Of a stretch of 64,000 nt of DNA, positions 5,533-22,195 are shown in pieces (position 1 is the first letter of the stretch; the number at the start of each line of letters is the position of its first letter). The DNA comes from Actinoallomurus purpureus (GTDB taxonomy: Bacteria; Actinomycetota; Actinomycetes; Streptosporangiales; Streptosporangiaceae): contig NZ_JAMXMY010000014.1 in the NCBI RefSeq assembly GCF_024055795.1, positions 186,001 to 250,000 on the forward strand, written 5' to 3'. The translations under genes and the position numbers were made by a program. The notes beneath the pieces were generated by a model. That model did no database searches. It was not told the origin of the DNA and saw only the letters and a list, made by a program, of their open reading frames with translations.

Positions 5533-6006
5533 ATGAAGACGTCCATATGTATGACGGGTGCGGTGTCCGCTCTGACCCTCGCGATGGCGGCCGCCACGGC
5601 GGTCGGCGCCGCCAACACGGCAAGCGCCGCAACCGTCAGCGTCGCGCCTCAGCAAATGATCAGCGGTGGCGGTGGTGGTGGGGGCGGCGGTGGCGGGGCG
5701 GCCGCAGCTGCCGCCGGTTGGGGCTCTTCCTCGGCTGCAGCCGGTGGCGGTGGCGGTGGCGGCGGTGGCGGCGGCGGCCACGATGACGGACGGAAGATCG
5801 TCATCATCGTGAAGCAGAAGCAGCAGCAGCAGTCGAAAAACGACAACGATAACGACAACAAACAGAACCAGAGGACCGACACCGAGAACAACAACCTGCA
5901 GCGCCAGCGGGCCGACTCGAAGAGCGAAAACGAGAACAAGAACAACAACAAGAACGAAAAGAAGCACTGGCACGGCGGCGAGAGCGACGAAGTGGGGGCG
6001 CCGTAG
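5533..6006 (+). CDS. Small secreted poly-Gly and Asn/Gln-rich protein, family A
   Basis: This 157-aa protein has GAGGAAGG about 12 nt before its ATG. The signal peptide runs to about residue 32 (ALTLAMAAATAVGAANTASA), followed by TVSVAPQQ as in the gene at 4648. Next come two Gly runs of about 11-13 residues separated by an Ala/Ser spacer, a charged and hydrophobic piece (HDDGRKIVIIVKQKQQQQ), and a long Asn/Asp/Lys/Gln tail (NDNDNDNKQNQ, NENKNNNKNEKKH). Such composition is unusual for bacteria and suggests a disordered or self-associating surface protein. No enzymatic motif is present. Lower GC in the tail reflects AAC/GAC/CAG codon use. Confidence 0.72.
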   Translation: MKTSICMTGAVSALTLAMAAATAVGAANTASAATVSVAPQQMISGGGGGGGGGGGAAAAAAGWGSSSAAAGGGGGGGGGGGGHDDGRKIVIIVKQKQQQQSKNDNDNDNKQNQRTDTENNNLQRQRADSKSENENKNNNKNEKKHWHGGESDEVGAP

Positions 6007-6234: not shown

Positions 6235-6687
6235 CTATTCGTTGTCGGCGCCAGTGTCGTTTGTTTTCTTGAAGGCTCTTTCGTCGTCCGCGCCACCGGC
6301 ACCCCCACCCCCACCACCGCCTCCGCCGCCACCGGCGGCGCTGGAAGATGAGGAGACGCCAAACTTCTCGTGGTCGATCTTCTGACGTTGCTTCTGATCC
6401 TGATCGGCCTTCTGGAGTTGCTTCTGATCCTGATCGTTCTTCTGGCGTTGCTTTTGTTCGTTTGTGCTGCTACTGGTGTTACGGATCTGGAATTTGTTAT
6501 TAATAATGATATTCTGGCGTTGTGGTGTGATGTGGCGGTCGGAAATCAGATTTCGATGTGACCGGCAACAGCCGCCGTGAATGATCGCCTGGGCTGAGGC
6601 TGAGTCGGCTGCGCTCACTGCGAAAGCGATATTTCCCATAAGCATAAAAGCAGGTATGGTCGCTTTCATTACTCTATCGACGGTCAT
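6235..6687 (-). CDS. Small secreted Gln/Lys/Asp-rich protein, family A
   Basis: This is the third member of the group, in the opposite orientation. It has 150 aa from the ATG at 6687; the internal ATG at 6669 would give an MKAT start more like its relatives. A signal peptide (FMLMGNIAFAVSAADSASA) is followed by a Cys-Cys pair, INNKFQIRN, and a heptad-like repeat DQDQKQLQKADQDQKQRQK that could form a charged helix. The C-terminus has a Ser run, a 13-residue Gly run and an acidic end. A diverged copy of the shared upstream element lies at 6782-6825. The function is unknown. Confidence 0.68.
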   Translation of the reverse strand: MTVDRVMKATIPAFMLMGNIAFAVSAADSASAQAIIHGGCCRSHRNLISDRHITPQRQNIIINNKFQIRNTSSSTNEQKQRQKNDQDQKQLQKADQDQKQRQKIDHEKFGVSSSSSAAGGGGGGGGGGGAGGADDERAFKKTNDTGADNE

Positions 6688-8757: not shown

Positions 8758-10080
8758 GTGGTCCTCCGCACGCGTCTGCCGATGCTGATCATCGGTGCCA
8801 CGCTCCTCGCGGCGCTGGCCGCGACCCTGGGCTTCGCGGTCAGGCGCGCGGCCACCTCGAACGCCCGTGAACCGGCCCGGCCGATCGGCGTCGTGGGGGC
8901 CCGCGGTGTCACCGACTGGCCGGCGTGGGGCTTCACCCACACGGACTACAGCGCCGACAAGGGACCGGCCAGCAGCACCGCCGCGGCCGCGATCTCACGG
9001 CAGCCCGTCCTGCAGAACCAGCACATCATGGGATGGGGCGCGGGCAATCCGGAGCCCACGCCCGGCACCTTCGACTTCCGCTCGCTCGACGAGCGCCTGC
9101 AGTACATCAGGAGGACGCGGGGGACTCCCGTCATCACCCTGTGCTGCGCGCCCGACTGGATGAAGGGCGGCAGGCCCGGCGCGACGGACTGGAGCAGGCT
9201 GGAGGTCGCCCCGACCCGCGACCATTTCCGCGACTACGCCGAACTCGCCGCCACGGTCGCCCGGCGCTATCCGGACGTGCACTACTTCGCCGTCTGGAAC
9301 GAGCTCAAGGGCTTCTTCGACAAGAAGGCCGACCGCTGGCGGTACGAGGACTTCACCGACTTCTACAACGCGGTCTATGACGCCGTGAAGGCGGTGAACC
9401 CGCAGATCAAGGTGGGCGGACCGTACATCCCGATGTACAGCTTCGTGCGGGGCCACCAGTCTGCGGTGCGCGGGCCCTGGGGGAGCATCGACCAGCGCGT
9501 CATCGACGCCATCGACTACTGGCTGGCGCACAAGCACGGCGCCGACTTCATCGCGGTGGACGGGCCCACGGCCAGCGACGACCGGGACGTCTATCCGGAC
9601 GAGGTGACGGCGCTCGGCAAGCTCGGCGCGATCGACACCTGGCTGCGCTCGAAGACGACCCTGCCGATCTGGTGGAGCGAGTACTACGTCGAGCCGCAGA
9701 GCCTTCCGTGGGCCGAGAACAAGCGTCTCGCCATCAACGCGGCGGCGCTCATCGAGTTGGCAAGGACCGGCGTCACCACCGTCCTGTACTGGAACAACGA
9801 GGCACAGGACGCTCGCTGCCAGGGCTGCCTGTGGATCAGCACCCTCGTACGCACCGGCGGCGTACCCGGGGGCATGCTGACCCTCCTGCAGAATTTCGCC
9901 CGATGGTTCCCCGCCGGCACGCAGCTGGTCGGCCTGTCGTCGGCCGACGCGCGCGTCCGGGTGCTCGCCCAGCCGCACGAGGCCGTCGCCGTCAATGTGA
10001 GCGACCGCCGGGTCCGCACGCGGGTCGGTGGTGACGAACTCTCCCTCGCACCGTATGAGATCCGCTGGCTGGATCGGTAG
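8758..10080 (+). CDS. Membrane-anchored or secreted clan-A glycoside hydrolase (GH39-like)
   Basis: The GTG at 8758 is preceded by GAGGCGAG overlapping the P450 stop. This 440-aa protein has an uncleaved-anchor-like or signal helix at residues 8-28 (PMLIIGATLLAALAATLGFA). The TIM-barrel signature is clear: the acid/base Glu in AVWNELKGF (Asn181-Glu182) at the end of strand 4, and a nucleophile candidate in PIWWSEYYVEP (Glu308) at the end of strand 7, which is the clan GH-A pattern. It resembles GH39 xylosidase-like proteins found in exopolysaccharide loci. It ends with a small beta domain. Its substrate is probably a surface polysaccharide, given the assembly operon nearby. Coupling to a P450 is unusual. 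Confidence 0.78.
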   Translation: MVLRTRLPMLIIGATLLAALAATLGFAVRRAATSNAREPARPIGVVGARGVTDWPAWGFTHTDYSADKGPASSTAAAAISRQPVLQNQHIMGWGAGNPEPTPGTFDFRSLDERLQYIRRTRGTPVITLCCAPDWMKGGRPGATDWSRLEVAPTRDHFRDYAELAATVARRYPDVHYFAVWNELKGFFDKKADRWRYEDFTDFYNAVYDAVKAVNPQIKVGGPYIPMYSFVRGHQSAVRGPWGSIDQRVIDAIDYWLAHKHGADFIAVDGPTASDDRDVYPDEVTALGKLGAIDTWLRSKTTLPIWWSEYYVEPQSLPWAENKRLAINAAALIELARTGVTTVLYWNNEAQDARCQGCLWISTLVRTGGVPGGMLTLLQNFARWFPAGTQLVGLSSADARVRVLAQPHEAVAVNVSDRRVRTRVGGDELSLAPYEIRWLDR

Positions 10081-10134: not shown

Positions 10135-10659
10135 TTAGTGGATGCCGAATCGCGTCATGCGGTGATGGAACGGCCGGGCACCGATCCGCCCGTGCCGGAA
10201 GCCCATCCGACCGTGACGGAACCCCATACGCCCGTGCCTGAAGCGGTGGAAGCCCATGCGGCCGTGGTGGAATCGGTGGTGGCGGAAGTGATGCCGGTGG
10301 TGGCGGAAGTGGCGGCGGAAGTGGCGGAAGTGATGCCGGTGGTGCCTGAAGTGATGGCGGAAGTGATGCCGGTGGTGTCGCCACCACGGCCGGAAGTGAT
10401 GCCGCCGGAAGTGATGTCGGCGGAAATGACGCCGGAAGTGGCGGCGGTGCCGGAAGTGGCGGCGATGGTGATCATCCTGCGCCACCGCGACTCCTTCGCC
10501 ACGGCCCTGCGCGACGTCGCCGCGAGTCGGCGCGGAGGCGGTCCGGGTGACGCCGCCCCGGGTCAGATCCGGCTGCGCGGTCGCGGGCGTTGCCGTGAAC
10601 AGCGCGGCAGCGACCGCGGCGCTCAGCAGGCCGACAGCGGTGCTTTTCTTCGTCAGCAC
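10135..10659 (-). CDS. Secreted His/Arg/Phe-repeat protein, family B
   Basis: A GTG start (10659) with AAGGAAGGAG six nt upstream gives a 174-aa protein. The signal peptide MLTKKSTAVGLLSAAVAAAL is of the same type as the four family members upstream. After a Thr/Arg/Gly stretch, residues from about 62 onward are almost only His, Arg and Phe in short units (HHFRRHHFR, RHHRHHFRHHF), then HGRMGF repeated four times with variations. The charge is strongly positive, with a metal-binding His content. It has no Cys and no known domain. Candidate roles are metal sequestration or binding of anionic polymers at the cell wall. The GC-rich repeats are built from CAC/CGC/TTC codons. Function is unproved. 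Confidence 0.75.
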   Translation of the reverse strand: MLTKKSTAVGLLSAAVAAALFTATPATAQPDLTRGGVTRTASAPTRGDVAQGRGEGVAVAQDDHHRRHFRHRRHFRRHFRRHHFRRHHFRPWWRHHRHHFRHHFRHHRHHFRHFRRHFRHHRHHFRHHRFHHGRMGFHRFRHGRMGFRHGRMGFRHGRIGARPFHHRMTRFGIH

Positions 10660-10720
10660 ATCGAACTCCTTCCTTGAAGGGACTAATCGCCTGATTTCGC
10701 GCCGGGGGTCGGAGTGAAAA

Positions 10721-10748
10721 GGGCGCCGGAGTGGCCACTCCGGCGCCC
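10721..10748 (-). terminator. Palindromic terminator GGGCGCCGGAGTGG/CCACTCCGGCGCCC
   Basis: A perfect 14-bp stem (10721-10734 with 10735-10748) is followed on the minus strand by TTTT. It lies downstream of the gene at 10855-11292. A close sequence relative serves the gene at 12451. Confidence 0.75.
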
Positions 10749-10854
10749 CGTCCGAGGAACTTTCACCCCGCCTTTTGGCTCAGGCGACGACTTTCCCGAT
10801 CTCGGCCGCCGTCATCGCCGTCGAGCCGGCGGCGCGTCGGCCTCCCGCTCCGGG

Positions 10855-11292
10855 TCAGTCGATGAACGCGCGCGCGTCACCGGCTCGGGCGAACACGTCG
10901 TCGCCGCGGATGACGGCCGAGGCGCCGTCGTCCCGGTTCCTGAGGAACCCGCGCCCGCTGAATCCGTCGTCATCGTCCCGGAACCGGTTGCGACGGAAGC
11001 AGCAGTCCCGGTCCTGGTCGTGGAAGCGGTGGCGGCGGAACCGGAACTGGAAGTTGTCGTTGCGGGCGATCGCGACGTTGTTGTTGCGGTTGTGGACACG
11101 GACCCGCACGATGATCCGGTTCTTGTTCACGTTGACGTTCCTGTTGGCGTTCCTGTTGTGGTGGTGGGAGCTCCAGCGGTGGTGCCCGTGCCAGGTGGGA
11201 ACCTGGGCCGACGCGGGCGAACCGGTGAGCAGGATGCCGGCTGCGGTAGCGGCGACGACCAGACCGCCTGCGGCGCTTGTCTTCTTCAGCAC
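10855..11292 (-). CDS. Small secreted protein with NRNNN core, family B
   Basis: The GTG start at 11292 lies in GGAGTTGACGTGCTGAAGAAG. Of 145 aa, the signal peptide is MLKKTSAAGGLVVAATAAGI with cleavage at ASAQ. The mature N-terminus is QVPTW, as in two paralogues, then His/Asn-rich (HGHHRWSSHHHNRNANRN), then the family core RIIVRVRVHNRNNNVAIARN. The alternating hydrophobic/basic pattern on both sides of NRNNN suggests a beta-hairpin. The second half is Arg/Asp/Phe-rich with a Cys-Cys pair (DRDCCFRRNRF). It is a secreted, probably cell-surface protein of unknown function. Confidence 0.75.
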   Translation of the reverse strand: MLKKTSAAGGLVVAATAAGILLTGSPASAQVPTWHGHHRWSSHHHNRNANRNVNVNKNRIIVRVRVHNRNNNVAIARNDNFQFRFRRHRFHDQDRDCCFRRNRFRDDDDGFSGRGFLRNRDDGASAVIRGDDVFARAGDARAFID

Positions 11293-11429
11293 GTCAACTC
11301 CTTGTTGCCGGAAATGGCCCGATGGCCATCAGCGCCCGTTTTGAGCGCCATAGGCGTACTTTCCCGACAACTCTCTTGGCACGGCAATCGTCGGGTAAGT
11401 TGCCCATAAAAGCCTCCGAGACGACGAAA

Positions 11430-11464
11430 GCCCCGGGGCTGGAGTCTCGCTCCGGCCCCGGGGC
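11430..11464 (-). terminator. Terminator after the gene at 11554
   Basis: GCCCCGGGGCTGGAG at 11430-11444 pairs with CTCCGGCCCCGGGGC at 11450-11464 (one wobble, 5-nt loop). It is followed on the minus strand by CTTTCGTC. It separates two family B genes, which are therefore transcribed separately. Confidence 0.7.
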
Positions 11465-11553
11465 CAATGGTGCGTCGATGGATGTAACGGTGATGGCGTA
11501 ACTTTAGGTATTTACTAGTGAAAATCAGCTCGAATGCGGACAAGACGAGCAGG

Positions 11554-12162
11554 TCACGGCGTCGACCATGACGCTTCCCCGGCCTTCTGATCAGCGCCCG
11601 AGGCGCTTCTCTTGCTCTGCGTCCCACCCTGGAGACTGCGGGCGCCGGCATCGTCCTTGCGGTCGGCGGCCTGCTCGCTGCGGCCGTCGCTGACATCCTT
11701 GCGGCCTTGGGCCACGTCGGCACGGCCCGAGGCCTCGTCGGCGTTCAGGGGCCGGCGCACCTGGGAGGCGGTCTGCGTGGCATTCGGCGTCGGCGCCGTG
11801 GTCGTCGGACCAGCGGTCGGCAAGGCGTCCGTCGACGGGTCGTGCTGCTTCTGCTGCTGCCGCTGCTTCTCGCGCTGCCATTCCCGCTGGCGCTGGAACT
11901 CGTGCTCCTTCTGCGCCTGCGCCTGGCCGTTACGGGCGATGGCGATGTTGTTGTTCCTGTTGTAGATGAAGATCCGGATGAAGATGCGCGGCCGGTTCCT
12001 GTTCAGGCTCACGTGGTGGTGCACGTGGCGGAAGGAGAAGTGGTGACGGTGGTGCCAATCGCGGACGAGGCTGCCCTGAGCGTGTGCGGGCGAGCTTGTG
12101 AGCAGGGCGCCGGCGGCTGCCGCGACCACCAGGCCCATAGAGGCGCTCTTGTTTTTCAGCAC
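11554..12162 (-). CDS. Small secreted protein with NRNNN core and long Gln/Thr tail, family B
   Basis: The real start is the GTG at 12162 (AAAGGAGACCGACGTG), giving 202 aa; the frame is open 59 codons further up but that part lacks a signal. The signal peptide is MLKNKSASMGLVVAAAAGAL, cleaved at AHAQ. A His-rich part (DWHHRHHFSFRHVHHHVSLN) is followed by the family core FIRIFIYNRNNNIAIARN and the Gln-rich helix EHEFQRQREWQREKQRQQQK. A Thr/Pro linker and a hydrophilic C-terminal region with repeated Asp/Gly/Arg (RADVAQGRKDVSDGRSEQ) are unique among the paralogues. No enzymatic motif is present. Confidence 0.73.
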   Translation of the reverse strand: MLKNKSASMGLVVAAAAGALLTSSPAHAQGSLVRDWHHRHHFSFRHVHHHVSLNRNRPRIFIRIFIYNRNNNIAIARNGQAQAQKEHEFQRQREWQREKQRQQQKQHDPSTDALPTAGPTTTAPTPNATQTASQVRRPLNADEASGRADVAQGRKDVSDGRSEQAADRKDDAGARSLQGGTQSKRSASGADQKAGEASWSTP

Positions 12163-12321
12163 GTCGGTCTCCTTTGCTGAAATGGTCCTGAAACGCCACG
12201 CGACCCGACCTCTCCCCGAGTTGGGAGAGCGTTGTGCCGGTCGAAGGGCTTCGGGGCCAATTGTCGGAAGGTGATTCGAAGATCCCTTGTGGGGATCATC
12301 GACTCGTCGTAGGCAAAAGAG

Positions 12322-12349
12322 GGGCGCCGGAGCGGTCACTCCGGCGCCC
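12322..12349 (-). terminator. Terminator after the gene at 12451
   Basis: GGGCGCCGGAG at 12322-12332 pairs with CTCCGGCGCCC at 12339-12349. It is followed on the minus strand by CTCTTTTGC. The stem is nearly the same as that at 10721-10748, showing that terminators were duplicated with the genes. Confidence 0.7.
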
Positions 12350-12450
12350 TCGCGGCGGGAGCGGCTTAGCGACTCAGCGGCTCCTGTGGCCGTTTCATCG
12401 GCCCGAGTCGTTGACGTGGCTGTGTAGCACCGCCATTCGCCGCATCAGTG

Positions 12451-12846
12451 TCAGTTGCCGGGGGCGCCGGGCGTAGGAGTGGCGCCCGGACGGCCGTAGT
12501 AGTCGTCCTCCTTCTGCTTCTGCCACTGCTTGTTCTTCTGGTCCTGGTCCTGCCACTCCCGCTGGCGCTGGAACTCGTGTTGCTTCTGCGCCTGAGCCTG
12601 GTCATTGCGGGCGATGGCGATGTTGTTGTTGCGGTTGCGGATCCGGACGCGGATGTGGTTGAAGAGCTCGTTCTCGTTCGCGTTGAAGTTCCGGTGGTGC
12701 GCCCGGAAGCGGAAGTGGTGGCTGGACGACCAGCCGCCGCCACCACCCCAGGTCGGAATCTGGGCGGACGAGGGCGAACTGGTGAGCATGACGCCTGTGG
12801 CGGTGGCGATTGCCAGACCGCCGATGGCGAGCGTCTTCTTCAGCAC
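12451..12846 (-). CDS. Small secreted protein with NRNNN core, family B (duplicate 1)
   Basis: The GTG start at 12846 (AAGGAGACCGACGTG) gives 131 aa. The signal peptide is MLKKTLAIGGLAIATATGVM with cleavage at SSAQ, and the mature start is QIPTWGGGGGW. Next come FNANENELFNHIRVRIRNRN and NNIAIARN, then the Gln/Arg/Glu helix AQAQKQHEFQRQREWQ and QDQDQKNKQWQKQKEDD, and a Gly/Pro/Thr tail. It is highly similar to the gene at 13675 through both coding and upstream DNA. It is predicted to be exported, with a beta-hairpin-like core and a helical Q-rich tail; function is unknown. Confidence 0.76.
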   Translation of the reverse strand: MLKKTLAIGGLAIATATGVMLTSSPSSAQIPTWGGGGGWSSSHHFRFRAHHRNFNANENELFNHIRVRIRNRNNNIAIARNDQAQAQKQHEFQRQREWQDQDQKNKQWQKQKEDDYYGRPGATPTPGAPGN

Positions 12847-12990
12847 GTCGGTCTCCTTATTTCTATCGGAATGGCGCGATGGCCCCTCACGAACCGGCGC
12901 TGCCCCCCGTGTTTCGGAAGGACGCCGTGGTTTGTAACATTCCCGCGTAGTTTCTCGAGAAGATAACTACAGGGTAAGAAGAAAATAAAG
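12451..12990 (-). repeat. Tandem duplication, unit 1 (gene plus upstream region)
   Basis: It matches 13675-14180. Besides the genes, about 140 nt upstream are conserved, including AACTACAGGGTAAGAAGAAA and ATAAAGAGCGAA and the block GGTTTGTAACATTCCC. Differences are mostly single substitutions, so the duplication is fairly recent. Confidence 0.8.
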
Positions 12991-13493
12991 AGCGAATTCT
13001 AAAAATCGGACGTATGGGCTGGTTCTCTGACTAGCTTCTCAAGCAACCCGGAATGGACGGCTGAATGCCTTACCGGAGGTCTGGCGTCGTTCTGGGCTTC
13101 GTCTGGCCTGGCGTGTCGTCGTCGACGGCGTGCCGATTCGGCCTTAGATTCGAGCCGGGCCTCGACTGTCGTTCGCCTTTCTTCTGCACGGGCCGCAACG
13201 GGGAGCTGTGCCGCCGTGGCCCGCTGGAAGGGACGAATAGGGGATATCCGGCATGGGTGGCCCGGTGTCGGCTGTCGGACGCCGGCCGGGCATGGGAACG
13301 CCGTGGCCCGGCAGGAGCAGCTGAGAATCCGGCCGTACTGCGCCGAGGGCGCGGTGCCGGCCCTGACGTGTTGCCGCGCGCAGGCGCAGGCCGACTCGCC
13401 GCGCAAGGGGCGGTGAGTGCGCGGGGGTCCGCTCGCCGACCCGGGCTCTTTGGGCGGAGGCGTAGGGCACCGGATCGTCGGCCCGCATGCGGT
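12991..13493. other. About 500 bp without a recognisable gene
   Basis: Frames are open on both strands because of the GC content, but none has a ribosome site, family signature or consistent codon bias. The stretch separates the two duplicated family B genes and ends at the inverted repeat 13494-13534. Confidence 0.5.
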
Positions 13494-13534
13494 ACGACGT
13501 TCACCGCGGCCTTTTCTGCCGCGGTGAACGTCGT
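13494..13534. repeat. Perfect 16-bp inverted repeat
   Basis: ACGACGTTCACCGCGG at 13494-13509 pairs with its exact complement at 13519-13534 around CCTTTTCTG. The right arm lies inside the broken copy of the flippase/GT-C gene, so the palindrome marks the breakpoint of that fragment. Confidence 0.7.
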
Positions 13535-13655
13535 GGGGAAGAACAGTCACGCCGCGAGGAGATGGGCGCCAGGGCACATGAAGGATTACGCCCGTGGCAC
13601 GATCTCTGCGCCGTGGCTCCGCGGGCCCGCCGCCAGGAAGGGTGTCGCCGGCAGA
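13519..13655 (-). pseudogene. Broken partial copy of the flippase/GT-C gene
   Basis: This stretch aligns with 15504-15640 in the 1170-aa membrane protein gene. Exact identity includes GAACGTCGTGGGGAAGAACA (13526-13545 and 15510-15529) and CGCCGCGAGGAGA, and the right end GCCGCCAGGAAGGG matches GCCGCGAGGAAGGG. Translated on the minus strand it begins ATPFLAAGPRSHGAEI, like AAPFLAAGLQNYGGEI, and ends AHLLAA-stop-LFFPTTFT against ACLLAAYVFFPTTFA. It has an in-frame TGA and a frame break in between. It is a non-functional fragment of a paralogue or of a local duplication. Confidence 0.75.
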
Positions 13656-13674
13656 CCGATCGCGCCCGGAGGTG

Positions 13675-14019
13675 TTAGTCCTCCTTCTGCTTCTCCCACT
13701 GCTTGTTCTTCTGGTCCTGGTCCTCCCACTGCCGCTGGTTCTGGAACTCGTGCTGCCTCTCCGCCTGCGCCTGAGTGTTGCGGGCGATGGCGATGTTGTT
13801 GTTGCGGTTCCGGATCCGGAGGCGAATGTGGTTGAAGAGCTCGTTCTCGTTCGCGTTGAAGTTGCTGTGACGCGAGGAGTGCCGGAAGTGGCTTGAGTGG
13901 CCCGAACAGCAGCCTCCGTCCCAGGTGGGCACCTGGGCGGACGCGGGCGAACCTGTCAGTACAACGCCCGCAGCGGCAGCGATCACAAGGCCGCCCAAGG
14001 CGTACGTCTTTTTCAGCAC
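13675..14019 (-). CDS. Small secreted protein with NRNNN core, family B (duplicate 2)
   Basis: The GTG start at 14019 has the ribosome site AAGGAGACCGAC. Of 114 aa, the signal peptide is MLKKTYALGGLVIAAAAGVV with cleavage at ASAQ. The mature start QVPTWDGGCC carries two Cys not present in duplicate 1, followed by His/Ser residues. The core is FNANENELFNHIRLRIRNRN and NNIAIARN, then a Q/E-rich tail. It ends right after KQKED, without the Gly/Pro tail of duplicate 1; the stop falls next to the pseudogene fragment, so the duplicate may have lost its 3' end at that junction. Function is unknown. Confidence 0.76.
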   Translation of the reverse strand: MLKKTYALGGLVIAAAAGVVLTGSPASAQVPTWDGGCCSGHSSHFRHSSRHSNFNANENELFNHIRLRIRNRNNNIAIARNTQAQAERQHEFQNQRQWEDQDQKNKQWEKQKED

Positions 14020-14180
14020 GTCGGTCTCCTTTTATCGGAATGGCGCGATGGCCCTCACGAACCGGCGGTGCCCCCGTGTTTCGGGAGGACGCCGTGGTTT
14101 GTAACATTCCCCCGGACTTTCTCGTGAAGATAACTACAGGGTAAGAAGAAAATAAAGAGCGAAACCTAAAAATCGGACTT
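13675..14180 (-). repeat. Tandem duplication, unit 2 (gene plus upstream region)
   Basis: Partner of 12451-12990. The shared upstream region ends near 14180, after CCTAAAAATCGGAC. Confidence 0.8.
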
Positions 14181-14352
14181 TTCGTCTTGTTTTCCGACCA
14201 GCCCTACATTGACTCTCAGAATGGACAGTGTGATGCTCGGGATGAGGTCGGATCTGATTCTGGAGTGCCCCGCACTTGGTGTGTCGTGCGCGACTGCAGG
14301 CTACGTCGGCGCTACGGTCGTGGCCGCAGGCGTGTGCCGTCAGGCCTTGCGT

Positions 14353-14772
14353 TCAGCGGTCGAACGCCCACGACTCGTCGCCGTCATCGGGGTTCGTCAC
14401 ATCCGCCTGGCGCATTCCCGGTGAATTTCCCCGATTCGGGGAGATTGCAACAGCCAGGGCGGTCGGCACCGTACAAACGGCCGCGACGGCGATGAGACCC
14501 CCGCGTGGCGACCAGATGGAGCACACCAGCATCATCTCGGCAACGGTGGCGTTCAGCGCGATCGCCGCGGCGCCGGCCACGATGACACGTGCCGCCCGGT
14601 CGAGCCGGGCGAGGAGCCGGGCCGTACAGAAAGCCGGCGTGACGAGGGCGAATGTCGGAACGAGCGGACCGGTGACCAATGACGGCGTACCGGAGGGGAG
14701 GAGAGCCGTGGCGGCAAGGCCGGCGATGAGGAATGCGGCAGACGCCGGGAAAATCACCTGTCGTCCGCGCAT
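14353..14772 (-). CDS. Small integral membrane protein at the end of the polysaccharide operon
   Basis: The ATG at 14772 overlaps the stop of the upstream gene (TGATG), so translation is coupled; an open extension to 14841 is not needed. The product has 139 aa with four predicted membrane segments (IFPASAAFLIAGLAATALL, TGPLVPTFALVTPAFCTA, VIVAGAAAIALNATVAEMML, LIAVAAVCTVPTALAVAIS) and a hydrophilic C-terminus. No family is recognised. By position it is an accessory factor for export or polymerisation of the polysaccharide. Confidence 0.7.
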   Translation of the reverse strand: MRGRQVIFPASAAFLIAGLAATALLPSGTPSLVTGPLVPTFALVTPAFCTARLLARLDRAARVIVAGAAAIALNATVAEMMLVCSIWSPRGGLIAVAAVCTVPTALAVAISPNRGNSPGMRQADVTNPDDGDESWAFDR

Positions 14773-17700
14773 CAGCCCCCCAATGCCAAGAAGCGCTCGA
14801 TAATCACAGTTGCCAGGACGATTATTAGAAAAACGGACCATCGGGTGAATGGTCGTAGTCGTGATTCCTCGCCCCGCGGAAGGCGCAGGCGCGCGACCTC
14901 CCGCGCGACCAGGAGAATGATCAGCAACGGCAGGGCGACGAGACCGACCGGGGTCCAGGTCGTCGAGCCGAATCGGAAGTGCCGTGGCCGGGCCGGGGCC
15001 GGCGGGACGCCCGGAGGCGGCGCCCGCAGCGCGTAGACGGCGGCGTCACCGTCCACCAGGACCGGGCGCAGCCGCGGCGCAGCGGCCAGGGCGGCCCGCA
15101 GCCTGCCCGCGTAGGCGGCGGGCAGGCCGTAGTTGTAGTGGTTGTACGCCTCGTTGGCCCGGGTGGTGACGAAGTAGCCGCCGGGCCGCTCGCTCAGCGC
15201 TGCGATGATCTTAGAGATGTCGGACGGGTCGCCGGTGGCGCGGACGGCGGTGTAGTCGAAGCGCTCCATCGCGCGGGTGCCCCACGGCATCATCGGGAAG
15301 TAGCCGGCGTCATCGTTCGGGTCCGCCTGCCACACCACGTTGATCACGCCGGTGGGGGTCTGCCGCAGCATCGCCTCGAAGGCACGCACCTCGCCGGGGC
15401 GTACCTGTTCGAAGTTCTCATTGCCGAAGCGGACGAACAGGAAGCCCCCCGCCAGCAGCAGCCCGGTCAGGGCCGCGGCGACCACCGCGAGGGTGCGGCG
15501 CGTCCCGGCGAACGTCGTGGGGAAGAACACGTACGCCGCGAGGAGACAGGCGCCGGGGAGGACGAAGAAGTACACCCGCAGCGCGATCTCGCCGCCGTAG
15601 TTCTGCAGGCCGGCCGCGAGGAAGGGCGCGGCCAGCAGGACCAGCGCGACCCGGTCGTCGAGGCGGCGCAGCCGCCGTCGTACCGCCCCGGAGACCGCGA
15701 GCAGCATGATCACGGCGGCGATGAGGATCCGCACCGACTGCACCGTCGCCAGGCTCTCGCTGCCATTGCTCACCCGTCCGGCGACGCCGCCGGTCAGATT
15801 GGACAGCAGCGCGCCCGCGCCGGAGAACAGGTCGCCGATGTGCCCGGCCCAGTACGCCGTCGTCATGAAGGCGACCCAGCCGGCGACCATCACCGCGAGC
15901 AGGATCGGCAGGCTCCGCGCGGTGCAGCGCCGTATGACCACCAGTCCCGCGCAGGTGAAGAGGGTCAGGAACGGGGTCAGCTGGTGGCTCGCCGTCGTCA
16001 CGGCGAAGATCACGACGAGGAGCAGCAGGAGGACGGTGCGCGTGCCGGCCGGGACGTCGGCGGGCGGCCGCTCTCCGGCCGACATCGGCCCGGTGACGAA
16101 CGCCCGGATCCGGCCGGTCCGCGGCAGCCACGCCGCAGGCCGTACGGGCGGGCGGAACCAGTTCAGCAGCACGCCGACGAACATCAGGTAGAGCAGGTAG
16201 GAGAAGCCCTGGGGGCTGAAGTAGTCCTGCCCGACCCAGTCCGCCACCACGAACAGCCACGCGGCCAGCCAGCACGCACGCCAGTTCGCGCGCATGACCC
16301 GCAGGATGAGGTACACCGGCGCGAGGTACAGCAGTTGGGAGACGACCGGCGCCCAGTGCAGGAGGGGCTCCAGGTTCCGGACCCCGGCCGCGCGGGTCAC
16401 GAACGCGACGAGCGCGAAGAACCCCGGCCAGCTGAACCGCGCGTCCAGCGCGTAGTCCGCCGCGCCGGTCCGCCGGATGTACTCCACGAACCCGTAGTGC
16501 TGCCAGGCGGTCTCCGGCCGGGCGTACGGCTCCAGGGCCGGTGCCAGGCCGTGCAGCGCCACGACGATGGCCACCAGCTGAAGGAGCAGGAGCACCCGGC
16601 GGGGACGTTTCAGCCACAGCGTGACGAAGAACGCCGTGACGAGCAGCGCGGCGCCGACGAGCGTCGCGACCGGCAGCACCGAGATCAGCCCGTACCCGTT
16701 CATGCGGGAGAGCCGCACGTGGCGCAGCGGGATCCAGTAGAGGCCGAGCCCGGCCGCGAACAGCGCCCACACCGGCCAGGCGGCCTGCGGGACACGGCGC
16801 GGGGCGGGGCGCTCGGGCGGCCGTACGGTGCCGGGCGCCGCCGCGACGCCGGGCGCCGCCACGGCCGCCACGACGCCGACGCTCGTCCGCTCGTCCTCCG
16901 CCACGACGCTCGCGCTCGTTCGCTCGTCCTCCGCCGCGACGACGGCGGTGTCCACGGCCGTGCCGCCCGGCACCGGCGTCGCCGGGCGGACCACCCGGAG
17001 CAGGGCCGGGAGCACGGCGACCGCCAGCGCGGCGCTGACCGCCAGCACGGCGTACCCGGGACCGGTCGTGCGCACTCCGCCGGGCACGGCGAGCACCAGC
17101 GCCAGCACGCCGGTGAACCGCGCACCCTGCAGCAGGGCCACCCGCCGGGTGCGCCGCTGCACCCGAAGGACGCCGATGTACACCTCGATCAGCGCTTTGG
17201 GAAGGGTGGCGAGAGCGAGGATCCGCAGCAGCGGGGCGCCGTGGCGGGCGTACCCCGGGCCGAAGAGGGACAGCCCCAGCCGGGCGCCGAGCAGGAGGAC
17301 GACGGTGGCGGGCAGGAGGATGAGTGTCATCCGGACGAGCACCGACCGGCAGGCGGCGGCGAGCCCGCGCGCGTCGAACGCGCCCTCGACCGTCAGCGAG
17401 GTCGCCATGTTGACGGCCAGCACGTCGACGGTCGCGCCGAGCACCCACGCCAGGTAGAAGAACGCGTTCGTGCGGGCGTCCAGTCGGGCGGCGACGACGA
17501 CCGGTATGAGGTTGCACAGCGCGTAGTAGAAGAGCGTGCCGGTGTAGTCACCGGCGAGGTAGCGGCCGATCTCCGCGCCGGTCGGGACCGGCCGGTCGCC
17601 CGCGGTCGCGGCGACGTGGCGCGGGATGAGCCGCTGGTGGATCACCCCCTCCACCGGGATGAGGAGGAGCAGCGCGGCCAGCACCCAGGAGATGGCGATC

Positions 17701-18284
17701 CCGTCCTGGGGCAGCGCGTCGGCCAGGGCCACCAGCAGCACGATTTTGAGGGCGGCGAACAGCGTGTTCTTGCCGAGCACGCCGGTCGCGTGCCGCAGCC
17801 CGGTGAGCACCCCGTCCTGGGCGGTGAACAGGCTCCACGAGACGACGGCCGCGACGAAGAAGATCCCGGAGCCGAGCCCCGACAGGTGCGAGAACGACGG
17901 GCCCCACCACGAGAGCGTGAGCAGGAAACCGGCGGCGAGCGTGGCGGCGGCCGCGATGCCCGCGACGTACGTGCGCAGCACGAGCCGGCTCGTGCCCTGC
18001 CCCATCTCGGGGATGAACCGGATGAGGATGAAGTTCAGCGCCGTCAGGCCGCCGAGGAACATCATGGCCTGGTTCTGCGCGGACTGCCGGCCGACCTCGG
18101 CGGGACTGTAGAACCGGGCGGCGAGGAGCCAGTAGCCGAGCCCGAGCACGCCGGTGAGCCCGCCGTTGATCATCAGGGCGTACGCGTTGCGGAACAGCGG
18201 ATTGGCCAGCTCGCTCCGCAGGGCCGCCATGGGCTCCAGTGTCGCCTCTTCGCCCGCCCGCGCAAGTGACTTCTGACGCGTCAC
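14772..18284 (-). CDS. Polysaccharide flippase fused to a GT-C-like membrane protein
   Basis: The GTG start at 18284 overlaps the deacetylase stop by 4 nt (GTGA). The product has 1170 aa. Residues about 15-440 look like an MATE/Wzx-type oligosaccharide flippase (RNAYALMINGGLTGVLGLGY, ARFYSPAEVGRQSA, up to 12 helices). A Val/Ala/Glu-rich linker with two imperfect repeats (AEDERTSASVVAEDERTSVG) leads into a second polytopic half, residues about 500-1130. This half has luminal motifs typical of GT-C glycosyltransferase-like proteins (GFVEYIRRTGAADYALDARF, WVGQDYFSPQGFSYLLYLMF). It probably couples lipid-linked oligosaccharide translocation to transfer or polymerisation. Such a fusion is uncommon. 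A damaged copy of its middle lies at 13519-13655. Confidence 0.8.
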   Translation of the reverse strand: MTRQKSLARAGEEATLEPMAALRSELANPLFRNAYALMINGGLTGVLGLGYWLLAARFYSPAEVGRQSAQNQAMMFLGGLTALNFILIRFIPEMGQGTSRLVLRTYVAGIAAAATLAAGFLLTLSWWGPSFSHLSGLGSGIFFVAAVVSWSLFTAQDGVLTGLRHATGVLGKNTLFAALKIVLLVALADALPQDGIAISWVLAALLLLIPVEGVIHQRLIPRHVAATAGDRPVPTGAEIGRYLAGDYTGTLFYYALCNLIPVVVAARLDARTNAFFYLAWVLGATVDVLAVNMATSLTVEGAFDARGLAAACRSVLVRMTLILLPATVVLLLGARLGLSLFGPGYARHGAPLLRILALATLPKALIEVYIGVLRVQRRTRRVALLQGARFTGVLALVLAVPGGVRTTGPGYAVLAVSAALAVAVLPALLRVVRPATPVPGGTAVDTAVVAAEDERTSASVVAEDERTSVGVVAAVAAPGVAAAPGTVRPPERPAPRRVPQAAWPVWALFAAGLGLYWIPLRHVRLSRMNGYGLISVLPVATLVGAALLVTAFFVTLWLKRPRRVLLLLQLVAIVVALHGLAPALEPYARPETAWQHYGFVEYIRRTGAADYALDARFSWPGFFALVAFVTRAAGVRNLEPLLHWAPVVSQLLYLAPVYLILRVMRANWRACWLAAWLFVVADWVGQDYFSPQGFSYLLYLMFVGVLLNWFRPPVRPAAWLPRTGRIRAFVTGPMSAGERPPADVPAGTRTVLLLLLVVIFAVTTASHQLTPFLTLFTCAGLVVIRRCTARSLPILLAVMVAGWVAFMTTAYWAGHIGDLFSGAGALLSNLTGGVAGRVSNGSESLATVQSVRILIAAVIMLLAVSGAVRRRLRRLDDRVALVLLAAPFLAAGLQNYGGEIALRVYFFVLPGACLLAAYVFFPTTFAGTRRTLAVVAAALTGLLLAGGFLFVRFGNENFEQVRPGEVRAFEAMLRQTPTGVINVVWQADPNDDAGYFPMMPWGTRAMERFDYTAVRATGDPSDISKIIAALSERPGGYFVTTRANEAYNHYNYGLPAAYAGRLRAALAAAPRLRPVLVDGDAAVYALRAPPPGVPPAPARPRHFRFGSTTWTPVGLVALPLLIILLVAREVARLRLPRGEESRLRPFTRWSVFLIIVLATVIIERFLALGG

Positions 18285-19054
18285 ACGGTTCCTCGGAGGC
18301 GTCGTACGGCGTAGTGGGACCGGCGTACGACGGCGTACCCCTTGGTCAGCGCGTGGTCGACCAGGAATCCGCGACCACGCAGCGCCCGCTCGAAGCCGGT
18401 GAGGGACGTGCCGGCCCGTACGGTCAGCCGGGGGACGGCCATCGGGTCCTCGTCCGCGGCCGGCAGCGCGTTCGCGACCGCGCAGGCCGCGTCGTACTCC
18501 GCCGCCCGGACCTCGCGGCGCACGCGTGCGCTGGAGTAGCCGTACGGGTAGGCCATCGTGGTCACGGCGCGGCCCAGCCGGTCCTCCAGGAGCCGCTTGC
18601 TGCGCAGCAGCTCCGTGCGGAGCACCGCGTGGCCGAGCTGGTCGAGCTGGGCGTGGCTGTGGCCGTGCCCGCCGACCTCCACCCCGCAGGCCGTGATCTC
18701 CTCGGCCTGCTTCCAGCTGAGCATCCGGCCGAGCGGCCGCCCCGCGGCGTACGGCCCGGCGTCGCGGATCCAGCCGGTGGTGACGAACACCGTCGCCCGG
18801 AAGCCGAACCGGTCGAGCAGCGGCAGCGCACGCTCGTGGAAGTCGGCGTACCCGTCGTCGAACGTGATGACCACCGGGCGGCCGGTCGCGGGCCGCCGTC
18901 GTACCAGCTCACCGAAGGTGATCGGCGTGTACCCGGTGTCCTTCAGGTAGGCGAGCTGCTCGGCGAACGCCTCGGGGCGGACCGCGAGGCGGTCGGACCC
19001 GCCGATGGAGTGGTACATCAGGACCGGAACGGGCCCCGGGCGCGCGTCACCCAT
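18281..19054 (-). CDS. Polysaccharide deacetylase (NodB domain, CE4)
   Basis: The ATG at 19054, with GGGAGA upstream, gives 257 aa. NodB motifs: VPVLMYHSIGG at the N-terminus, VITFDDGYADFHE (catalytic and metal Asp pair), GGHGHSHAQLDQL (metal His), and MAYPYGYSS. There is no signal peptide, so it acts in the cytoplasm on a lipid- or nucleotide-linked sugar, or is exported by another route. It overlaps the preceding GT2 gene by 8 nt and the following flippase gene by 4 nt. The likely role is to remove N-acetyl groups from the glycan built by this operon. Confidence 0.9.
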   Translation of the reverse strand: MGDARPGPVPVLMYHSIGGSDRLAVRPEAFAEQLAYLKDTGYTPITFGELVRRRPATGRPVVITFDDGYADFHERALPLLDRFGFRATVFVTTGWIRDAGPYAAGRPLGRMLSWKQAEEITACGVEVGGHGHSHAQLDQLGHAVLRTELLRSKRLLEDRLGRAVTTMAYPYGYSSARVRREVRAAEYDAACAVANALPAADEDPMAVPRLTVRAGTSLTGFERALRGRGFLVDHALTKGYAVVRRSHYAVRRLRGTV

Positions 19055-19964
19055 GGGATCTCCCGAGGGAGCCGGCGGCGTACCCGGACATCGTGAACGC
19101 GAGCCCGGCCACGATCGCGCCCGCGCGCCCGAGCCCGGCCGGGTCGCCGGTGACGGCGGCGCGCAGCCCGCGCCCGACGCCGCGCGGCAACTCCACCAGC
19201 GCGTGCCGCCGCTCGCTGGCCAGCCCGTCCCCGACTCCGACGCTGCGCGTGACCATCGCCTTCGACAGGCCCTCGGCGTAGCAGCGGGTGCGGAAGTACG
19301 CGAAGCGGGCGCGTTCGCCGGGAACGCGGTGCCAGATGACCGCGCGGTCGTCGAACACCAGCACCGTCTCCGGCGCCGCCTGGCGCAGCCGGATGCAGAA
19401 CTCGGTCTCCTCACAGCCCAGCGGCCGTTTGCCCGGCGCGCGCCCGATGCCGCTGCGAAAGCCCCCGGCCACCTCGAACGCCGCGCGCCGGAACGAGGCG
19501 TTGCCGCCCATGAGGTTCCGGATCGGTCCCGTGGCCATCCCGCGGTACGTGCAGCCGACCACCCACGCGAACTCCTCGGGGAACCAGCGCGGAGCCTCGG
19601 ACGGCCAGAGCGGCAGCGTACGGCCGCCGACCCCGGCGACGTCCGGGGCGTCGTACCCGCCGGCCAGGACGGACAGCCATTCGGCGTGCGCCACCGCGTC
19701 GTCGTCGAGGAACGCCACCACCTCGCCGTGGGCCGCGGCCACGCCGGTGTTCTTGCCGCCGGACAGCCCCCGCCGCCCGGTGTTGGGGATCACCCGGACG
19801 TCCGGGAGCACCGACCGGAGGCGGTGCAGGAGTGTCTCGTTGTGGTCGACGACGAGGATGATCTCGTGAGGCGCGAGCCGCTGCGCCCGTACGGACGCGA
19901 CGGCGGCCAGGACGTCGTCCCAACGTCGCTCGGTGTAGGCGCAGATGACCACAGAGATCTTCAC
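19047..19964 (-). CDS. Family 2 glycosyltransferase
   Basis: The GTG at 19964 (AAAGGGGAGCGCGGCGTG) overlaps the previous stop as GTGA. Of 305 aa, the GT-A fold is evident: ISVVICAYTERRWDDVLAAV, LSGGKNTGVAAAHGEVVAFL then DDDA (DxD-like metal site), and RPLGCEETEFCIRL (acceptor-site ED-type motif). The C-terminal 60 residues include a possible membrane-associated helix (AGAIVAGLAFTMSGYAAGS). It is cytoplasmic or membrane-peripheral and transfers a sugar from a nucleotide donor onto a growing lipid-linked oligosaccharide. Donor specificity is unknown. Confidence 0.9.
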   Translation of the reverse strand: MKISVVICAYTERRWDDVLAAVASVRAQRLAPHEIILVVDHNETLLHRLRSVLPDVRVIPNTGRRGLSGGKNTGVAAAHGEVVAFLDDDAVAHAEWLSVLAGGYDAPDVAGVGGRTLPLWPSEAPRWFPEEFAWVVGCTYRGMATGPIRNLMGGNASFRRAAFEVAGGFRSGIGRAPGKRPLGCEETEFCIRLRQAAPETVLVFDDRAVIWHRVPGERARFAYFRTRCYAEGLSKAMVTRSVGVGDGLASERRHALVELPRGVGRGLRAAVTGDPAGLGRAGAIVAGLAFTMSGYAAGSLGRSHG

Positions 19965-21097
19965 GCCGCGCTCCCCTTTCGGTCCGGCGACCGGTTCCGG
20001 CCGGCGTCGGGTGCGTCGCGGCCGTCCGCGCGGGCCTTCGGGCGCAGCCGGGCGTACGCCCGCAGCACCCGGTCCGCGCCCGCGTACAGCACCGGGCTGG
20101 CCAGCACCGCGCTGCGCGCCCGGCGCACCGGGGCCTCCCGGACCCAGTGCAGACCGGCGGTGGCCGAGACGCGTGCCGCGCGGCCCTCCGCGATCGGGAA
20201 CTCGGCGTTCTTCAGCCAGTCCTTGTACTCCCGGCCGCCCCGCCCCATGGCGATCCAGCTGATCCCGGCGTCGGCGGCCGCCTCCGCCATCCGGAGATGG
20301 CCGATCATGCCGGGGGAGTACCGGCCGAACTCGACGTCGTACGCGGGGAACCATCCCGCCATGACCGGGCCCGCGCGCAGTCCCAGGTGCGCGGAGACGG
20401 GCCGGCCTCCGGCGCGCAGCACGCTGAGCACCCCCATACCGGTCTCGTGCAGGTGCTCCACGAGCGCCACGATCCAGGGCACGGCGAACCGGTCGGTGCG
20501 GCCCGTCCGGCGGTACTGCCCGGACTTCCAGGACATCAGGCGCCGCAGCTCCGCCGGGTCCCGCTCGTCGAATGTGTAGGTCACCTCCCCGGCCTCGCGC
20601 CCGAGCTTGCGCTCCTTGTACCGGACGGTCTTCAGCGTCTTCGGGGACCGCCGCCGGGCCTCGTCCGCGTACGCGGCGAAGCCCGCGCGCAGGTCCATCA
20701 CCGGCTCGACGCGGGTCTGCGCGTGATAGGGCGCGAACGCCGCCTGGTCGGCCAGGAGGTGGTCGAACTCCCAGACGGACAGGCGGCAGGCGCGCAGCAG
20801 CGCCCGGACGTCGAACTCCAGGTCCGGCGGGCCGGCGAATCCCTGGCAGTCGGTCAGCCCGGCGCCGATCGGCCGGCCCAGCCCCAGCGCGTGCCGTTCG
20901 TACGGCAGGAAGCCCACGACGCCGGTGCCGTCGCTCAGCACGGCCACGCGCGCGTCGGCCCGGAACCGGCCCACGGCCAGGGTGAACTCGGGTGCGAGGA
21001 ACGGATTGCCCAGAGCCGCGCCGGCGCCCTGGAGCGCGCGCCAGCGCGCCAGCTCCGGCTCCCCGAGATCCTCCGGGCGTGCGATGTCGACCCTCAC
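19961..21097 (-). CDS. CelD/BcsL-type GNAT acyltransferase (FemAB-like)
   Basis: The GTG at 21097 overlaps the previous stop as GTGA and yields 378 aa beginning VRVDIARPEDLGEPEL; upstream open sequence belongs to another gene read in a different frame. The two-lobed FemAB/CelD fold is indicated by NPFLAPEFTLAVGRFRADAR, the central RSPKTLKTVRYKERKLGRE, and the C-terminal GNAT block RPVSAHLGLRAGPVMAGWFP then EYKDWLKNAEFPIAEG. These proteins occur in exopolysaccharide gene clusters and are thought to acylate sugars or amino groups. Its place before the second glycosyltransferase supports glycan decoration. Confidence 0.85.
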   Translation of the reverse strand: MRVDIARPEDLGEPELARWRALQGAGAALGNPFLAPEFTLAVGRFRADARVAVLSDGTGVVGFLPYERHALGLGRPIGAGLTDCQGFAGPPDLEFDVRALLRACRLSVWEFDHLLADQAAFAPYHAQTRVEPVMDLRAGFAAYADEARRRSPKTLKTVRYKERKLGREAGEVTYTFDERDPAELRRLMSWKSGQYRRTGRTDRFAVPWIVALVEHLHETGMGVLSVLRAGGRPVSAHLGLRAGPVMAGWFPAYDVEFGRYSPGMIGHLRMAEAAADAGISWIAMGRGGREYKDWLKNAEFPIAEGRAARVSATAGLHWVREAPVRRARSAVLASPVLYAGADRVLRAYARLRPKARADGRDAPDAGRNRSPDRKGSAA

Positions 21098-21951
21098 CCG
21101 GCGGCCTCCTCGAGGTGGGCCTGCTCCAGGCCCACCCGCTCGTGGGCGGCGTGCTCCAGTACGGGACCGGCGGCGGGCCGCGGGCGACCCCGCTGCGCGG
21201 GCCCCCGGCGCCCTCGGACCATCGCGCGCAGCACCCGGAGGCCGTCGCGGCGGGCGTTCAGCTTCGAGACGCCCGACCTGCGGTCGAACTCGTGGCTGGG
21301 CACCTCGGCGATGCGCATCCCGGTGGTGATGGCGTTGACGCACAGCTCCGTCTCGATCTCGAACCCGTCGGCGGCCAGCCTCAGCCGGTCGACCACGGAG
21401 CGGCGCAGCGCGATGTACCCGTAGCACAGGTCCGTCCAGCGCACGCCGTACAGCACGTTGGCGAGCCTGGTCAGCCAGAGGTTCCCGGCCCGGCGCAGCC
21501 GCGTGAGGTCGTCGGAGCCGCCGCCCACGCAGTAGCGGGATCCCTTCACGACGTCGAACCCGCAGCAGATCAACGCGACGAACGCGTCGATCTCCCTGGG
21601 GTCCATGCTGCCGTCGGCGTCGATGGCGATGATGACGTCGCTGGTGGCGGCCTGGAAACCGGCCCGCATCGCCGCACCTTTCCCAGCGGGAGGCTGGCTG
21701 ATGATGACGGCGTCCGGTCGCAGGCGCCGGGTGACGTCGACGGTCCCGTCCGAGGACTCGCCGTCGACGACGACGACCTCCTCCACCCCGGAGAGCCGGG
21801 GCAGGAGCCATCGCAGGTTGTCGGCTTCGTTGAGGGTGGGGATGACGGCGGTGACGGTCGGCCAGGACGTGCGGTGACGTGCGGTGTCGAGATGATGCAG
21901 GAGCGCGCCGGAACGTACGCCGGCGCTGTGGAGGGAGTCCGGCTCGTGCAT
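21094..21951 (-). CDS. Family 2 glycosyltransferase (dolichyl-phosphate mannosyltransferase-like)
   Basis: This is the first gene of the operon. The ATG at 21951 is preferred over more distal starts because the glycosyltransferase domain follows directly; GGGGGC lies upstream. Of 285 aa: VTAVIPTLNEADNLRWLLPR, VVVVDGESSDGTVDV, GKGAAMRAGFQAATSDVIIA, IDADGSMDPREI (DxD), and the late SHEFDRRSGVSKLNARRDG typical of the DPM1-like clade. There is no transmembrane tail. It probably loads the first sugar on a polyprenyl phosphate or adds an early sugar. Its C-terminus is Arg/Pro/Ala-rich and ends in the GTGA overlap. Confidence 0.9.
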   Translation of the reverse strand: MHEPDSLHSAGVRSGALLHHLDTARHRTSWPTVTAVIPTLNEADNLRWLLPRLSGVEEVVVVDGESSDGTVDVTRRLRPDAVIISQPPAGKGAAMRAGFQAATSDVIIAIDADGSMDPREIDAFVALICCGFDVVKGSRYCVGGGSDDLTRLRRAGNLWLTRLANVLYGVRWTDLCYGYIALRRSVVDRLRLAADGFEIETELCVNAITTGMRIAEVPSHEFDRRSGVSKLNARRDGLRVLRAMVRGRRGPAQRGRPRPAAGPVLEHAAHERVGLEQAHLEEAAG

Positions 21952-22195
21952 GGTGGTGCCCCCGGTCAGGCAGGGGAGACTCGGAGAGGACGAGGTCCCT
22001 GCCGAGGTCGATTGACACCATCGATGGTCGGCCGCCGGGCGCGGAAAACCCTCCCCCGCCTGACGCAACCGCCCTACGTCAGCCGGAGGGATCCGCAGGG
22101 TGACGCGACCGTCACCGGGCCTCGCGCCATGGGGTCGGAGGGCCGAGTAGGGTTGCGGGCGTCGGCAGTGGACGTACCGAGGAGGTGAGACTCAT

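Follow-up and report, generated by a model that had tools for sequence, protein, structure and literature searches.

In a 64,000-nucleotide stretch of the Actinoallomurus purpureus genome (9.25 Mb; contig NZ_JAMXMY010000014.1, positions 186,001 to 250,000; "the window" hereafter), four tandem genes, here named B to E, represent a real protein family that has no name in Pfam or NCBIfam, is restricted to one lineage and has its own control sequence. The members share an asparagine-rich core around the motif NRNNN. Judging from their sequences, we see about an even chance that B to E would be lineage-specific secreted extracellular-matrix proteins, in which a common assembly or glycan-binding core is combined with variable tails. 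The cluster comprises the following genes:

10135 to 10659, minus strand: gene A, exported-looking His/Arg/Phe-rich companion of 174 amino acids without the NRNNN core
10855 to 11292, minus strand: gene B, NRNNNVAIARN member of 145 amino acids, basic tail with CC
11554 to 12162, minus strand: gene C, NRNNNIAIARN member of 202 amino acids, Gln-rich and then Pro/Thr/Asp tail
12451 to 12846, minus strand: gene D, NRNNNIAIARN member of 131 amino acids, Gln-rich tail modelled as helical
13675 to 14019, minus strand: gene E, NRNNNIAIARN member of 114 amino acids, GGCC motif and Gln-rich tail

An earlier note on this DNA had described five genes sharing the core NRNNN[IV]AIARN. Five minus-strand open reading frames (ORFs) are indeed present, and four of them (B, C, D and E) encode the core; it is absent from A, so the cluster does not consist of five members of one family. 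Gene A encodes a His/Arg/Phe-rich repeat protein whose relatives adjoin the clusters of loci L024 and L029. The common start context was borne out, as all five genes begin with GTG behind a GGAG-type ribosome site (the frame of C opens further out, at 12339, and its GTG was picked by the ribosome site). The same holds for the alike signal peptides: all five proteins begin with M-L-(K/T)-(K/N), followed by a hydrophobic stretch and, by eye, an AxA-like cleavage site, and B to E are thus likely exported. Individual terminators, also proposed, found partial support. Inverted repeats lie 3' of B (10721-10748), C (11430-11464), D (12322-12349) and E (13494-13534), and none was found after A; a terminator scan placed minus-strand sites only after D and C, with 7 sites on both strands versus 3.3 expected.

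Pfam returned no family for A to E at E <= 1, and NCBIfam gave only two matches (A and D), both below the cut-offs. The claim that no described family of this type exists thus holds for these two libraries, and a description of an NRNNN-core family was not found in the open-access literature searched, PMC4255298, PMC5618241 and PMC11637428 included. A match of the core to a characterised domain, named beforehand as a refuting outcome, did not turn up in Pfam, NCBIfam or the Protein Data Bank (PDB) sequences. A search of the PDB sequences with D gave one match (phmmer, E 0.6). We rejected kinship with PDB entries suggested by profile A2, a family profile that includes the signal peptide: the 60 matches listed of 66 (best E 0.0019) all begin at profile positions 3-13, that is, in the signal peptide. 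They include nanobody chains and alpha-synuclein, and two run to profile position 65.

Searching the window genome with D revealed six places (E 3.6e-12 to 3.6e-88), corresponding to six members: B to E, one on contig C11 and one at C5:171860, about 14 kb before the window. The earlier note had asked for a profile search of actinomycete genomes, and such a search found the family in all eight Actinoallomurus genomes and in a few neighbouring genera. The eight genomes, among them A. iriomotensis, A. soli, A. spadix, 'Actinomadura sp. DC4' and two metagenome-assembled genomes, belong to 341 genomes of the family Streptosporangiaceae that were searched. They contain 6, 6, 6, 7, 9, 9, 10 and 11 matches to profile A2 (64 in total, some of them weak). 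In most of them the bulk of the members forms one tandem cluster, and a single copy or a handful lie at other places; in A. iriomotensis the cluster is split into two parts about 14 kb apart.

In all, 130 of the 341 genomes match profile A2 at E <= 0.001. We did not count the weak matches as members: several that were inspected by eye, chaplins among them, are similar in the signal peptide only. Outside the genus, convincing relatives occur in g54 (genomes G070 and G071, E 1.2e-13 to 3e-17), and the g52 genomes G067 and G068 carry 4 and 6 core-bearing genes in tandem. Comparison of core profiles gave 97% for g54 and 86% for g52, scores that none of 60 column-permuted controls reached in either case. 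Look-alike tandem clusters with other repeats were seen in g53 and g68; the core of g68, the one of the two that was profile-compared, is a possible relative with a partial match (66% over 15 columns, 0/60 permutations as good). In other genera of the family Streptosporangiaceae, L122 (6312-13381) and L119 (9243-10090) contain tandem clusters that look alike but have different cores; their products are small, exported-looking and rich in His, Asn and Gln. A core-only profile (A3) matched one of 394 class genomes, the window genome, and nothing else; this sample is thin on near relatives, evidently holding no other genome of the genus, and 17 first-look candidates were scored per genome. Plasmids gave no match to the family.

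The family is under purifying constraint, with a ratio of non-synonymous to synonymous substitution rates (dN/dS) of 0.28 over 1755 codons (16 orthologue or paralogue pairs, partly non-independent). In the same pairs dN/dS is 0.23 for the signal peptide, 0.16 for the core and 0.30 for the tail, and dN is 0.043 in the core versus 0.169 in the tail. Member anatomy was assessed in a strict set of 45 proteins, defined without ORF L035 8387-8810 (no start found) and without the NKNNN and other variant-core members caught by A2. A GTG start is used by 39 of the 45, 43 contain NRNNN, 12 the strict form NRNNN[IV]AIARN, and in 24 a Cys-Cys pair stands near the beginning of the mature protein. The consensus core is approximately RNRNWNGNENxxxNHIRLRIxNRNNNIAVAR, with N-R-N-N-N near-invariant. 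The tails differ among members and can be Gln-rich, Asp-rich, Gly-rich, Pro/Thr or made of collagen repeats. The last type was found in two A. iriomotensis proteins, one with a canonical and one with a diverged core, which have the same kind of signal peptide:

L034, 6928 to 8064: collagen-like family protein with GPT/GAT repeats
L034, 10553 to 11551: collagen-like family protein with GPT/GAT repeats

The collagen Gly-X-Y repeat (PF01391) is absent from the window members according to Pfam. A variant member type, with a core resembling NRNVNTAWAG or NHNVNTAFAG, is found at L027 7948-8364, L028 10589-11158, L030 11957-12574 and L031 12940-13371; its C-terminus is acidic and contains VGNDIRTAGD in three of the four.

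Most family genes share a control element in front of the gene. The pattern CTTAC[CT]-N28-GGGAA lies upstream of 31 of the 45 members, and a looser pattern upstream of 36. Of six exact occurrences in the window genome, four lie upstream of family genes, namely B, D, E and the copy on C11; genes A and C have no exact match. Across the eight genomes there are 39 exact matches to CTTACC-N28-GGGAA, of which 31 are located 70-97 nt upstream of a family match, and the reversed pattern occurs five times. Distances were taken to 61 of the 64 family matches (excluding an edge match on G004:C185 and the weak matches G007:C1:6677314 and G006:C39:92733). Between element and start, the 5'-untranslated region (5'-UTR) can form a 5-bp stem. 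In an alignment of 30 of 36 upstream regions, stem cells are paired in 95.3% versus 90.2% in shuffles (0/500 as high) and in 23-50% when the stem is slid; double-change cells number 13 versus 4.9 (0/500 as high). The six remaining regions are four short B-type ones, one duplicate and L039_8214, in which by eye four of the five stem pairs form. The window contains:

11361 to 11399, minus strand: upstream element CTTACC-N28-GGGAA of gene B, exact pattern match
12940 to 12978, minus strand: upstream element CTTACC-N28-GGGAA of gene D, exact pattern match
14107 to 14145, minus strand: upstream element CTTACC-N28-GGGAA of gene E, exact pattern match
12896 to 12926, minus strand: 5'-UTR stem-loop of gene D, covarying stem, positioned by hand from the alignment
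14064 to 14093, minus strand: 5'-UTR stem-loop of gene E, covarying stem, positioned by hand from the alignment

In Rfam, no family passed its threshold; a single chance match scored far under the gathering cut-off. Family 5'-UTRs also contain a highly conserved GGCCATCGCGCCATT stretch, which precedes the start by about 25-40 nt (e.g. window 12847-12944) and whose GCGCC could pair with the stem's 5' arm in an alternative fold. The gap between D and E (13020-13670) is long, and the flanking upstream regions 12847-13020 and 14020-14190 are by eye near-duplicates, as from a recent tandem duplication.

The surroundings of the cluster resemble an exopolysaccharide locus. On one side lies a gene for a 1170-residue membrane protein, with deacetylase, glycosyltransferase and acetyltransferase-domain genes beyond; on the other side lie a glycoside hydrolase family 39 (GH39)-like gene and a cytochrome P450:

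7451 to 8746, plus strand: cytochrome P450 (PF00067)
8758 to 10080, plus strand: GH39-like protein (PF01229, 2.4e-7), also in L024, L025 and L029
14353 to 14841, minus strand: small ORF separating the cluster from the 1170-residue gene, conserved, with relatives in 7/7 other main clusters
14772 to 18284, minus strand: 1170-residue membrane protein gene, syntenic, without Pfam match
18281 to 19183, minus strand: polysaccharide deacetylase (PF01522; in NCBIfam closest to PgaB, at a score under the cut-off of that family)
19047 to 20354, minus strand: family 2 glycosyltransferase (PF00535)
19961 to 22021, minus strand: GNAT acetyltransferase-domain protein (PF13480)

The main cluster occupies the same place in all seven other genomes of the genus. 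The 1170-residue gene stands beside it in 7/7, the P450 in 6/7 (the seventh contig ends first) and the GH39-like gene in 3/7, namely in the three loci listed above. We infer that the membrane protein is the flippase or polymerase of the locus. Its relatives occur in 59 of 120 genomes of the same family, and the main-cluster P450 (53-75% identity) in six of eight exopolysaccharide loci from other genera, in which a crude scan detected no core-family genes. The P450 thus appears to belong to the polysaccharide locus. This locus seems to predate the protein family and to be more widespread, the family having apparently been inserted into it. In all eight genomes the main cluster is encoded within the exopolysaccharide-type locus, the solitary copies outside it. 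The window also encodes two further exported-looking N/Q/G-rich low-complexity proteins (5533-6006, plus strand; 6235-6687, minus strand), neither with NRNNN; the first is by eye like a g52-type member (L120 10298).

A surface or matrix role is supported by the exopolysaccharide-type locus, the collagen-tailed members, the shared upstream element and the covarying stem. According to our proposal, each protein would be exported by way of its signal peptide, and its mature form would start with a Gly/His stretch, often containing a Cys-Cys pair, followed by the basic, Asn-rich NRNNN core of about 35 residues and finally a member-specific tail. Since the core is the shared and most conserved part, it most likely does the common job: it would bind the exopolysaccharide of the neighbouring locus and/or associate with other cores. 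Its positive charge (+2 to +9 in 13 listed of the 45 members) would suit an acidic polysaccharide, the charge of the polymer being a guess. The tails would give each member a surface of its own, be it helical and Gln-rich, acidic, Gly-rich or a collagen triple helix. Because most genes carry the common upstream element and the 5'-UTR stem, they are probably switched on together; joint expression may accompany deposition of the matrix, perhaps around hyphae or spores.

Two known systems offer parallels. In Vibrio, the rbm genes are located between the vps clusters. Secreted matrix proteins working with the exopolysaccharide and a polysaccharide-cleaving enzyme in the gene cluster have been described (PMC11637428, PMC5605196), as have FnIII domains in RbmA (PMC5605196). 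The rbm genes may serve as an analogy, not as kin, for matrix proteins and a polysaccharide-cleaving enzyme encoded in one cluster; RbmA has its FnIII domains, whereas our family has a short low-complexity core (a comparison of architecture, not of sequence). The second is BclA of Bacillus, in which a short N-terminal module is followed by GPT-rich collagen repeats. The collagen-tailed L034 members are built in the same way; the likeness to such spore proteins is one of architecture, and unlike in the BclA type the collagen tail is found in only two members from one of the eight genomes.

Several observations weigh against a matrix role of this kind. In the window genome two copies, on C11 and at C5:171860, are found away from the cluster; loci of two genes or one also occur in other genomes of the genus, and P450s stand near three of five independent solitary loci (see below). 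In neighbouring genera, the crude scan of eight exopolysaccharide loci found no core-family gene (it also missed a known relative in L117), and the ten genes examined near the relatives, out of 67 ORFs listed, code for MFS, citrate synthase, SpoIIE-type and further unrelated products; several contigs of these genera end near the cluster, which leaves this comparison incomplete. Double changes occur in two of the five stem pairs, a number not above that in shuffles (387/500). Finally, AlphaFold2 shows no folded core in D or B.

The last point bears on the possibility that the cores, stacking into a cross-beta fibre with asparagine ladders, form a functional-amyloid layer on aerial hyphae or spores as chaplins or rodlins do, the polysaccharide being a mere neighbour. 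We consider this possible, though fairly unlikely. It would fit the N-rich core with its near-invariant N-R-N-N-N, a monomer predicted to be unfolded, as expected for a protein that folds only on assembly, and the several paralogues per genome, as for chaplins (PMC4255298). The earlier note had likewise proposed a beta-hairpin around NRNNN and a resemblance in concept to functional-amyloid designs, neither of which gained support from the structure prediction of the mature protein that it had suggested. For mature D, AlphaFold2 modelled a single helix (residues 46-89), the rest being coil. The predicted local distance difference test (pLDDT) of the helix is about 90 at residues 61-80, flanked by stretches at 69 and 76; in its first half the core is modelled as coil, at pLDDT 54-60 or so. 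Since the helix starts inside NRNNN, IAIARN is modelled as helical at low confidence, which speaks against cross-beta stacking. The model of B has no assigned secondary structure; its pLDDT averages 53.5 and is highest, at 70, in the block 31-40. We therefore set the beta-hairpin aside as unsupported by prediction: no strands appear in either model, and the hydrophobic alternation of the strand-turn-strand segment is barely above that of shuffles (mean z 0.55, range -1.14 to 1.38 in 45 cores). Of the proposed Gln-rich helix in three members, the Gln-rich tail stands for C, D and E, and the helix was modelled for D, confidently in its middle only.

Resemblance to known surface amyloids was examined as well. 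Chaplins (PF03777, ChpA-C) are likewise small, exported, present in several copies per genome and assumed to act at the surface, and those of Actinoallomurus have signal peptides similar to the family's. The earlier statement that no chaplin domain is present proved correct in Pfam, in NCBIfam and in the profile comparison, where the core reached 0.28% probability against chaplins with 13/60 permuted controls as good. Rodlins RdlA/RdlB share export, tandem arrangement and Asn- and Gly-richness. Our reference was a pair of proteins beside a chaplin in genome G057, which we take to be rodlin-like; against these the core scored 0.07% (40/60 permutations as good), and blastp, without composition correction in this two-sequence database, gave a best E of 0.004 that is not meaningful. 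Kinship with chaplins or rodlins, suggested by signal peptides and strand-turn-strand patterns, was rejected on these grounds, which counts against an amyloid layer, although unrelated amyloids would fail the same comparison. Moreover, chaplin-domain proteins are encoded by separate genes in all eight genomes of the genus, so the family does not simply replace them; the chaplin matches listed for the window genome (part of nine) lie on contigs C22 and C44, away from upstream-element sites.

Alternatively, the proteins could be secreted cationic peptides whose His/Cys/Arg-rich segments bind metal or act on competitors, which we regard as quite unlikely. Mature-form isoelectric points of 8.1-11.6 (13 listed of 45), the His-rich segments, the Cys-Cys pair in about half of the members and the very His/Arg-rich companion A would agree with such a function. 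However, conservation resides in the Asn core and not in His or Cys residues, collagen and Gln-rich tails make little sense for such peptides, and no metal-transport or immunity gene was seen among the flanking window genes scanned, which was not a full search.

Modification by neighbouring P450s, either of precursors resembling ribosomally synthesised and post-translationally modified peptides or as cross-linking of secreted proteins, appears very unlikely. Tandem genes with a conserved leader and the P450 flanking the main cluster would conform to it, as would the P450s near three of the solitary loci, namely L035, L039 and L032, to which L033 is orthologous:

L035, 8387 to 8810 and about 8862 to 9764: solitary member ORF and P450 gene about 50 bp apart
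L033, 8589 to 11573: P450 gene near a solitary pair, at 1.1 kb
L032, 8363 to 13633: P450 gene near a solitary pair, at 3.2 kb

For L039 the distance is about 8 kb. These P450s are 26-41% identical to the window P450, and the solitary loci L034 and L037 gave no P450 match. Five genomes of the genus carry 28-39 P450s each, in 8-11 Mb; from this density we estimate that about 0.3 solitary loci would have a nearby P450 by chance; the observed number is higher, which raised the weight of modification or cross-linking. On the other hand, the main-cluster P450 belongs to the polysaccharide locus, as judged from other genera, and no P450 match was found near the relatives in L115-L120 and L122. The leader also resembles a secretion signal, and the tails are long and diverse. 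That the genes are low-complexity GC-rich noise without protein meaning has practically no chance: biased composition and the lack of a named family would agree with it, but it is already contradicted by dN/dS, synteny, ribosome sites and conserved control elements.

As for the matrix proteins proposed here, a more specific version, which we think rather unlikely, is that the NRNNN core would be a new minimal assembly module, some 35 residues long and disordered by itself, which would stack or dock on nascent exopolysaccharide and be locked by N-terminal Cys-Cys pairs or by cross-links made by P450s. The result would be a mixed fibre or coat of interchangeable helical, acidic, glycine-rich and collagen tails, most of them switched on via one element and RNA stem. 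If true, part of the outer matrix of mycelial actinomycetes outside Streptomyces would be made from a modular set of fast-diversifying proteins, nameless in the searched family libraries and tied to a polysaccharide locus and to a regulatory element of the set's own. One element and one cluster would then provide a genetic handle on how exopolysaccharide and protein are combined, and the family might be a source of short self-assembling or glycan-binding peptides.

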